A stretch of 60,477 nucleotides of DNA, taken from positions 1-60,477 of the forward strand of contig CANJPG010000012.1 in assembly GCA_947476065.1 (NCBI GenBank). The letters run 5' to 3'. Position numbers and translations under genes: made by a program. Below the pieces are notes generated by a model. That model was not told the DNA's origin and did no database searches. It was given only the letters and a program-made list of their open reading frames with translations. Shown in pieces: positions 28,243 through 29,676 of the stretch. How positions within the stretch are numbered: position 1 is the first letter of the stretch; every line of letters begins with the position of its first letter. This DNA is from Fidelibacterota bacterium (lineage in GTDB: Bacteria > Pseudomonadota > Alphaproteobacteria > Rhodospirillales > Rhodospirillaceae).

Positions 28243-28315
28243 TGCTGCAAGGTTTAGTGCAGCATAAAGTGCAGCAAACGCCCATTATGCTGCACACATT
28301 GCTGCAGCATAAAGC
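28243..28315. repeat. Cluster of TGCAGCA/TGCTGCA repeats with two alternative hairpins
   Basis: TGCAGCATAA occurs directly at 28258-28267 and 28303-28312, and inverted (TTATGCTGCA) at 28285-28294. The inverted copy can pair with either partner: stem 28258-28267/28285-28294 (17-nt loop) or 28285-28294/28303-28312 (8-nt loop). Two partial copies, TGCTGCA (28243-28249) and TGCAGCA (28270-28276), lie alongside. It fills the gap between the convergent trpS and RHH/RAMA-like genes. There is no T run on either strand. Confidence 0.8.
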
Positions 28316-29017
28316 CTAGCGCAGCGCCCAGAATCCCGCGCCTTTGCCGTAGGGCATCGCAAAATGGTCGGCGCCGCCCTTGAACGCGTCGCTGTCTGAA
28401 GAGCTCTCCTCGAGAATGCGCAGCACCGTGGCTTTCGCAGCCACCGGCCAATCTCGACCCTGCGCCCGCCGCACCTGTTCGACGGCCTTATATATGTCGT
28501 CTAAAAGCCCACGGCCGTCCTCGATGGCGGCAAGGCCGGCGCGCACGTCGGCCAGCCAAAGGGCGTCTTCGGAGAGCGGTCCTGCCGGTCTGGCCTTGCG
28601 CCGGACCACGGCCGTCGGGTCGCGCAGGGTCGAGATCTGCTGGCGGCGGCCGTCGGGCCCCAGGAAGAACCAGGAGGCCCAGGCGTTTTCCGTGCCGGCG
28701 CCGACCCCGCGGCTGAGTTCGTTGAGGCTGCCATAAAGGGCGCCGCTGCCCTTCAGCACCCACCTGCCGCCGCTAGCCCGCGCTCTGACATCCTCGCCCT
28801 TCAGCGAGCGGAAGATCTCAAAACCTTCGGGGAAGAGAACACCGTGACGTAGGTCCCTGAAGCCTGGCGAGGCCTGGGCCTCACTATAATTCTCTACTTT
28901 CTGGGTGGGGGCTTGGGTGAGAAGACGCGCCAGAATATCATTCTCGGTTTCTTCGCCGGCTTCGCGTAAAGCCCATATTTTTGCGAAGATTTCCACCGAA
29001 ACGGCAATTTGGCGCAT
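28316..29017 (-). CDS. Ribbon-helix-helix / RAMA-like domain protein
   Basis: 233 residues, no firmly known family. Residues ~1-35 (IAVSVEIFAKIWALREAG then EETENDILARLL) resemble a ribbon-helix-helix like the SeqA N-terminus. Residues ~63-132 have the spacing of the RAMA domain of adenine methylases such as CcrM: a strand with RARASGGRWVLKGSG, then YGSLNELSRGV, then ENAWASWFF and GRRQQISTLR. The C-terminal ~80 residues are helical (DDIYKAVEQVRRAQGRDW) and end KGAGFWALR, perhaps a winged helix. All this points to a DNA-binding, possibly modification-reading protein (inference). It interrupts the usual trpS-to-nfu order, has an AT-rich palindrome right upstream of its ATG and inverted repeats directly past its stop. 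Confidence 0.6.
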   Translation of the reverse strand: MRQIAVSVEIFAKIWALREAGEETENDILARLLTQAPTQKVENYSEAQASPGFRDLRHGVLFPEGFEIFRSLKGEDVRARASGGRWVLKGSGALYGSLNELSRGVGAGTENAWASWFFLGPDGRRQQISTLRDPTAVVRRKARPAGPLSEDALWLADVRAGLAAIEDGRGLLDDIYKAVEQVRRAQGRDWPVAAKATVLRILEESSSDSDAFKGGADHFAMPYGKGAGFWALR

Positions 29018-29035: not shown

Positions 29036-29064
29036 TTATCTATAATATATAGAATTATAGATAA
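29036..29064. promoter_or_regulatory. AT-rich palindrome, probable operator of the RHH/RAMA-like gene
   Basis: TTATCTATAA (29036-29045) and its exact complement TTATAGATAA (29055-29064) flank a 9-bp AT-only-but-one spacer. It ends 18 bp upstream of the minus-strand ATG (29017) and contains several -10-like hexamers (TATAAT, TATATT). In this GC-rich sequence a 29-bp AT tract with perfect dyad symmetry is a likely binding site, plausibly for the encoded ribbon-helix-helix protein itself. Confidence 0.65.
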
Positions 29065-29118
29065 ATAAAGTGGCAATTAGAGAATCTGGCAGGCCTGTTC
29101 GAAGGACAGGCGCGGCAG

Positions 29119-29676
29119 TCAGGCGAAAACCTTCTGCCCGTCGCCGTAACCGATGTTGCAGAGGAAGTTGGCTTTGACCCGGCCATCCGGAAAGAAGGCG
29201 GCATTCACCCTGCCGGCATCGAAGCCGCTCATGGGGCCGCAGTCCAGACCTAGGGACCGGGCCGCCAGCATCAGATAGGCACCCTGAAGACTGCCATTGC
29301 GCAGGGCCCCGAGCTCGATCTCGGTGTCGGGCTTCCCCACAAACCAGGCCCGGGCGTCCACATGGGGAAACAGGGTCGGCAGGTGGTCATAGAACTTCAT
29401 GTCGTAACCGACGATGACATTCACCGGGGCGGCCATGGTCTTGTCGACATTGTTGGCCGCCAGGGCCGGGCGCAGTTTTTCTTTGGCCTCTTTAGAGATG
29501 ACGAAGACGAAGCGCGCCGGCGTGGAGTTGACCGCCGTAGGTCCCCACTTGGCCAGGTCATAGACCTGGCGCAGCAGCTGCTCTGACACCGCCTCGGGTG
29601 TCCAGCTGTTCTGGCTGCGGGCCTCGCGGAACAGCAGATCGAGCTCAGCCTCGCTGGCCTGGCCGCGCGTGGGCAT
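29119..29676 (-). CDS. rutE: Malonic semialdehyde reductase RutE-like nitroreductase
   Basis: 185 residues. The sequence fits the small RutE/HadB branch of the nitroreductase fold: FREARSQNSWTPEAVSEQLL, the FMN-region LAKWGPTAVNSTPARFVFV, and ARSLGLDCGPMSGFD near residue 140. RutE reduces malonic semialdehyde to 3-hydroxypropionate in pyrimidine breakdown, but no other rut gene is present, so a more general quinone or aldehyde reductase role is possible. Its ATG overlaps the stop of the Nfu gene (TAATG), so translation is coupled. Confidence 0.85.
   Translation of the reverse strand: MPTRGQASEAELDLLFREARSQNSWTPEAVSEQLLRQVYDLAKWGPTAVNSTPARFVFVISKEAKEKLRPALAANNVDKTMAAPVNVIVGYDMKFYDHLPTLFPHVDARAWFVGKPDTEIELGALRNGSLQGAYLMLAARSLGLDCGPMSGFDAGRVNAAFFPDGRVKANFLCNIGYGDGQKVFA

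Follow-up and report, generated by a model that had tools for sequence, protein, structure and literature searches.

In the stretch of DNA analysed here (the window; 60,477 nt), one gene encodes a protein of 233 residues (P0001) in which, as predicted by the profiles of its relatives and a structure model, three modules that are found separately in methylation biology are joined without an enzyme: a SeqA_N-like domain, a RAMA-like domain and a forkhead-like winged helix (wH) (Table 1). The domain call of an earlier note on this DNA, a SeqA-type N-terminus followed by a RAMA-like module, largely holds. P0001 is on balance probably a regulator without enzymatic activity that binds DNA sequence-specifically and controls the promoter from which it is transcribed, and a likely operator lies directly upstream of the gene. 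In the mechanism proposed, the SeqA_N/ribbon-helix-helix-like domain would dimerise and may grip the operator, the basic RAMA domain would hold the DNA backbone, and the wH would provide a second recognition surface, possibly one that, like the wH in certain wH endonucleases, senses methylated adenine.

Table 1. Features of the P0001 gene and its upstream region, in window coordinates.
Feature	Position	Strand	Basis or remark
SeqA_N-RAMA-wH gene, 233 aa	28316..29017	-	ATG frame, congener conservation, alignments, model
SeqA_N-like / ribbon-helix-helix-like N-domain, residues 1-36	28910..29017	-	A6 profile, SeqA_N matches in relatives
RAMA-like domain, residues 52-140	28598..28864	-	Foldseek ranks 1-2 (placement by inference), PF18755 in relatives
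Forkhead-like winged helix (wH), residues 150-233	28319..28570	-	Most Foldseek matches from rank 3 on (placed likewise), A5 alignment
Perfect inverted repeat, 11-bp arms, 7-bp spacer	29036..29064	-	At -47 to -19 from start; 1/200 dinucleotide shuffles as good
CTATA-N11-TATAG inside the inverted repeat	29040-29060	-	At -43 to -23 of gene

The 233-residue reading frame proposed in the earlier note is a real ATG frame and lies on the minus strand, which that note did not state. Its start codon is supported by six full-length rows of alignment A2 and by E. coli SeqA, all of which align from residue 1. Membership of a known family was rejected: P0001 alone has no match in Pfam or NCBIfam, even at E 10, and none in PADLOC (0 families at E 0.1) or PHROGs; no nuclease family match was found in any of these four collections. 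The protein contains no cysteine, and its net charge is +5 in the RAMA domain and -3 in the acidic wH. The domains were recognised through relatives collected in alignment A3 (35 proteins: 7 three-part proteins, 1 SeqA_N-wH protein, 22 N-half proteins and 5 longer proteins that begin with the wH). A near copy of L037 (L039), two fragments (L042, L045), three small wH-like proteins (L066, L077, L082), a DUF2924 protein (L079) and a CcrM (L081) were omitted from A3. The titles and abstract openings found in the literature, a partial coverage, describe no SeqA-RAMA or RAMA-wH protein.

The earlier note had read the N-terminal half as a SeqA-type N-terminus joined to a RAMA-like module, and both parts are backed by the relatives' profiles and the fold comparison. 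In searches of PDB sequences with the N-half profile (A6), the best matches are SeqA structures (1xrx, E 1.9e-4; 3fmt, E 2.1e-3), aligned from residue 1. When the A3 proteins were scanned singly, SeqA_N matched 6 of the 35 (best 1.4e-5), DUF7557 nine, HNH four and VAPB_antitox two. Among six distant members scanned with coordinates, SeqA_N stands at the start of three and DUF7557 at that of two; of the close members scanned in the same way, L014 and L072 gave no match and L012 a weak one to DUF7557 alone. One-to-one comparison of A2 with E. coli SeqA is weak (P 0.001, prob 21.5). In SeqA, the N-terminal domain is chiefly an oligomerisation domain, and the C-terminal domain binds hemimethylated GATC. 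The latter was not found in P0001, where the alignment of A2 with SeqA stops at residue 36. Because the SeqA alignment ends there and the rest resembles RAMA and wH, P0001 was not filed as a SeqA.

The RAMA model PF18755 matches 10 of the 35 A3 proteins scanned singly (best 2.8e-9), and RAMA lies in the second half of all six distant members scanned with coordinates, L047 alone exceeding the cut-off. In the PDB sequence search with A6, CcrM (E 0.18) and MPND (E 0.51) appear in the expected place but amid unrelated chains, antibodies and a designed barrel (E 0.034) among them. Comparison of A2 with the CcrM of the window's genome is likewise weak (prob 0.8, E 0.074), and in the class search A2 matched the CcrM of another genome at E 9e-4 (L081). 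The phylum search with A6 gave matches in 15 of 398 genomes at E 1e-6, including nuclease-like-plus-RAMA proteins and DUF2924-type proteins, as judged from translations; in L120-L122 and L125, proteins of about 350 aa read as having a RAMA domain at the C-terminus behind a nuclease-like N-terminal part. Trp113 and Trp116 are invariant across the 27 A6 rows. In MPND, Ser113, Ser115 and Trp135 are reported to contact the DNA backbone (PMC9963953); by motif context, these contacts would map to Ser97, Asn99 (not Ser) and Trp113 of P0001.

The AlphaFold2 model, built from 31 rows, has a mean pLDDT of 90.2 and a pTM of 0.56, with pLDDT below 50 only at residues 37-45. Among the best 50 of 483 Foldseek matches in the PDB, MPND bound to DNA ranks first (7ydw, E 6.8e-3, prob 1.00) and CcrM second (6pbd, E 0.084, prob 0.92, rmsd 13.8), and winged helices of forkheads make up most of the matches from rank 3 onward (E 0.10 or higher, prob at most 0.99). 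The Foldseek listing carries no query ranges, and we infer which matches belong to the RAMA domain and which to the wH; none of those listed reaches E 1e-3. Against viral structure models, no match at E 1e-3 or lower was obtained. For residues 60-135, where another fold would have spoken against the original domain call, the fold comparison gave RAMA (MPND, CcrM), and the call was not refuted.

The C-terminal part, which the earlier note had left unnamed, is a third domain, a forkhead-like wH shared with HNH nucleases. In the 13 wH rows of alignment A5, W, F and G.G.W are invariant and R, E, S, D, G and L near-invariant. The same module stands at the start of two proteins annotated as HNH (L006, L007), of one that matches HNH_2 (L044) and of one that matches the mREase_IV model (L043). 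Such wH-HNH proteins are encoded in one genome of the same order (G217) and one of the same family (G032), the latter sharing its genus with G277, a carrier of the three-domain form, and plasmid matches in Priestia and Ligilactobacillus are annotated as HNH endonucleases. In sequence, the module is only marginally similar to forkheads, with a Pfam match at E 0.006 in one row of the 13 and a PDB match at E 0.22. PDB sequence matches to T4 lysozyme and to a lectin were dropped as seeming chance; the lectin had the best E in these searches (1.4e-5), from repeated weak stretches. Two stand-alone proteins of 146 and 137 aa (L077:7120-7560 and L082:360-773) have a wH-like C-terminal half.

Seven three-domain copies were found (those of four congeners including the window, L012, L032 and L069), of which L012 was an additional copy among the 6 loci obtained when the collection of named genomes was scanned with a pattern. 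Other relatives carry SeqA_N-RAMA alone (L013, L014, L070-L072) or SeqA_N joined straight to the wH, with RAMA absent (L067, from a viral collection; L068 is the same stretch). Since SeqA_N-RAMA, SeqA_N-wH and wH-HNH (L043, L044, L006, L007) all exist, the parts occur in different combinations. In its own genome, P0001 matches only itself at E 1. Full-length matches were obtained in 4 of 61 genomes (own plus relatives), 4 of 297 (order), 5 of 73 (family) and 2 of 385 (class), in sets that overlap. A Pro-tailed SeqA_N-RAMA form is present in one further genus, in 9 of its 10 genomes, in most loci near msrB-like and chemotaxis-like genes as judged by eye. IMG/VR yielded three related loci, two of which are one stretch without RAMA. 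The idea of a phage gene was rejected, P0001 having no match in 50,697 phage records.

The candidate operator is a perfect inverted repeat that contains the motif CTATA-N11-TATAG. This motif has a single exact match in the 3.26 Mb genome, at the window gene (a reversed-pattern control gave 5). With a spacer of N11/12, each of the three other congeneric carriers (G014, G015, G016) has a single match, always at its copy of the gene, just upstream of the start; of seven non-carriers, two have one match each, elsewhere, and five have none, the controls giving 3-11 per genome. The motif was derived from the promoters of the four carriers, so that its presence there is by construction and its absence elsewhere is the independent observation. 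The upstream alignment of the four carriers contains a common element, against which the window's perfect repeat is shifted. Upstream inverted repeats reach p <= 0.05 in 5 of 30 regions (1.5 expected): those of the window, L002, L012, L069 and L013. Of these, L012 (0/200 shuffles as good) and L069 (p 0.035) are other three-domain genes. The upstream repeats of L003, L004, L032 and L067 miss p 0.05, and none is significant in the eight upstream regions of the Pro-tailed lineage. Six of the regions (L013, L014, L036, L040, L074, L080) are shifted because the assumed start is not a start codon. A sigma-70 scan of the promoter gave no match on the strand of the gene. This result counts against the regulator reading, as do the acidity of the wH, the modest Foldseek E-values with the high rmsd of the CcrM match, the marginal forkhead similarity and the chiefly oligomerising role of the N-terminal domain in SeqA.

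Because P0001 consists of DNA-binding modules, known elsewhere from a replication regulator, DNA methylases and DNA-cutting enzymes, with no recognisable cutting part, a self-controlled reader of marked DNA is possible, and the protein is perhaps, and plausibly, a reader of 6mA. That its main task is to read 6mA on incoming or chromosomal DNA, in a SeqA-like sequestration or silencing with autoregulation secondary, is unlikely, though it deserves to be weighed. SeqA and RAMA are each linked to adenine methylation, and the C-terminal module is common to wH-HNH proteins, among which several genes are reported to be toxic in Dam+ cells, published wH fusion endonucleases sensing 6mA in GATC; in the table of that paper, no wH-HNH protein is marked active in vitro (PMC11037411). 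In Rhizobium phage RHph_X2_26, a SeqA_N-RAMA-like protein is encoded directly after a DNA adenine methylase gene of Dam type (L114:3015-4534), and in the window's own genome there is a CcrM-like methylase that ends in a RAMA domain (PF18755, 58.4 bits). Against this, the methyl-binding C-domain of SeqA is absent from P0001, the wH matches among the best 50 of 483 are forkheads, and 6mA reading by RAMA is disputed in the published accounts (PMC9963953, PMC11037411), the RAMA domain of MPND being reported to bind DNA regardless of 6mA (PMC9963953). The promoter motif contains neither GANTC nor GATC. Within 150 nt upstream, GANTC occurs once at the window gene (-69) and at -48 in L012, and it is missing from the congeners L002-L004 and from L069. 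The proposal that P0001 reads GANTC specifically therefore finds no support: the methylase is there, but the gene is patchy (4/19 congeners) and the upstream GANTC is not conserved. The window as a whole contains few GANTC sites (96, or 1.6 per kb) and many GATC sites (350). A stronger version, in which P0001 would be a SeqA analogue made from other parts, a reader that oligomerises, limits itself and uses RAMA and the nuclease-shared wH to coat DNA methylated or hemimethylated at adenine, is less likely still.

The reading as a self-controlling regulator has also to be set against a role in defence. Some two-domain relatives may regulate a defence system or belong to it as an accessory part; that P0001 itself does so for a system encoded elsewhere in its genome is improbable. 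A survey of homologues and their neighbours, as the earlier note had suggested, found defence or methylation genes near 7 of 20 two-domain relatives and none at the four congener copies. The contexts were those of L005, L008, L013, L014, L046, L047, L070-L076, L080 and L109-L114, of which L112 and L113 begin to match only around residue 24-28; the Pro-tailed L033-L042, the viral L066 and the late matches L118 and L119 were left out. Type I RM genes (hsdM-hsdS) adjoin L014, L005 and L047 (the last by eye), the L072 relative lies between McrBC and GajA-GajB, that of L013 is 2.6 kb from a ThsB-like gene, that of L111 adjoins DUF499, and that of L114 follows the Dam-type gene. In L072 (229-8280), the SeqA_N-RAMA gene stands 63 bp before GajA-GajB and after McrBC on one strand, and is possibly a regulator of the Gabija operon. 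The RAMA part of 8 of the 35 A3 proteins matches the PADLOC candidate PDC-S14, and small repressors of Type I RM systems are known, as RptR is reported to act at palindromes in its own promoter (PMC12255303). However, these are only 7 of 20 contexts, with no matched control rate, and no defence or methylation genes were seen in the other 13 (in L109, WYL and mazF genes lie 3-5 kb away). The four congener copies lie, by eye, in surroundings of housekeeping genes, no PADLOC model matches P0001, and the motif has no second exact match in the genome. The three-domain copy L012 has a recombinase near it and, by eye, a MazF-like gene; around L032 and L069, the called frames are mostly unreadable.

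The position of the gene between trpS and the rutE/nfu pair was borne out, and the congener carriers have it in the same place. Its order had been described as otherwise conserved: the housekeeping genes around the slot are common to the carriers (glnD, murJ, trpS, nfu and nucleotide-sugar genes, by eye over 17-22 kb), but the slot itself is variable in the genus. Counting the window's own, 19 genomes of the genus were covered, and four of them have the gene, with 64-70% identity to the window copy, and all four carriers among the 61 genomes belong to this genus. Of the 17 same-genus genomes with a rutE match, four carry the gene, two have a bare trpS-rutE gap (G009 and G018; 114 and 119 bp), six have another ORF there (G013, G001, G003, G012, G006, G002) and five have no trpS inside the fetched 1.5 kb; the slot, being empty, gene-bearing or otherwise filled, is thus variable. 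Presence and absence require four changes on the rutE tree and two on the trpS tree, so that a single gain with losses and several gains are indistinguishable. Among the carriers, pN is 0.19-0.28 and pS 0.67-0.76, with synonymous sites near saturation. By part, pN is 0.13-0.33 in SeqA_N, 0.14-0.27 in RAMA and wH, and 0.31-0.79 in the linkers; all three domains are constrained and the linkers diverge. That the gene is mobile-element cargo or a remnant kept by chance in a variable slot, as its patchiness, the empty or otherwise filled slots and the recombinases near L012 and L070 might suggest, is very improbable given that pN is well below pS in all three domains, that the frames are intact in 4/4 congeners and that the promoter motif is common to the four carriers.

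A cluster of TGCTGCA repeats between trpS and the gene was dropped as a part of the system, since it is also present in bare slots. The sequence TATGCTGCA has 5 copies in the window against 0.3 expected (0/100 shuffles reach 5), at 28258-28311, 18986 and 40907; TGCTGCA clusters follow trpS in congeners too, and the genus possibly has a repeat dispersed among its intergenic regions. The rutE-like gene (29080-29676, minus strand) ends at an in-frame stop about 13 codons earlier than its relatives do, which is either real or an assembly error.

As a prokaryotic RAMA protein that has a predicted natural site but neither a methylase nor a nuclease part, the putative regulator P0001 would make the disputed reading of 6mA testable. 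Its relatives may form a candidate regulator class, encoded in some cases next to Type I RM or Gabija genes, and the SeqA analogue, if true, would be an alphaproteobacterial silencing or sequestration system without an enzyme.

Among known systems, E. coli SeqA (1xrx, 3fmt) is alike in its N-terminal 36-43 residues, which align with P0001 from residue 1, and unlike in its C-terminal domain, in whose place P0001 has RAMA and wH. RAMA proteins (PF18755; the CcrM C-terminus, MPND) provide the top two Foldseek matches and a model that relatives match, but this model misses P0001 itself, to which no methyltransferase or MPN domain is attached. The relatives' match to PDC-S14 spans about the last third of that model, and P0001 has none. 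RptR, as described in PMC12255303, resembles the putative regulator P0001 as a small protein that represses its own gene, whose promoter contains palindromes; it is encoded close to Type I RM genes, a setting shared by some two-domain relatives. It differs in its four-helix fold, and no RM gene adjoins the window gene. The wH fusion endonucleases described in PMC11037411, which include wH-HNH proteins and a nuclease-less NTD-wH-NTPase, use the wH as a module, as do the wH-HNH relatives L043 and L044, whereas P0001 has no nuclease or NTPase match and carries its wH at the C-terminus, after SeqA_N-RAMA.
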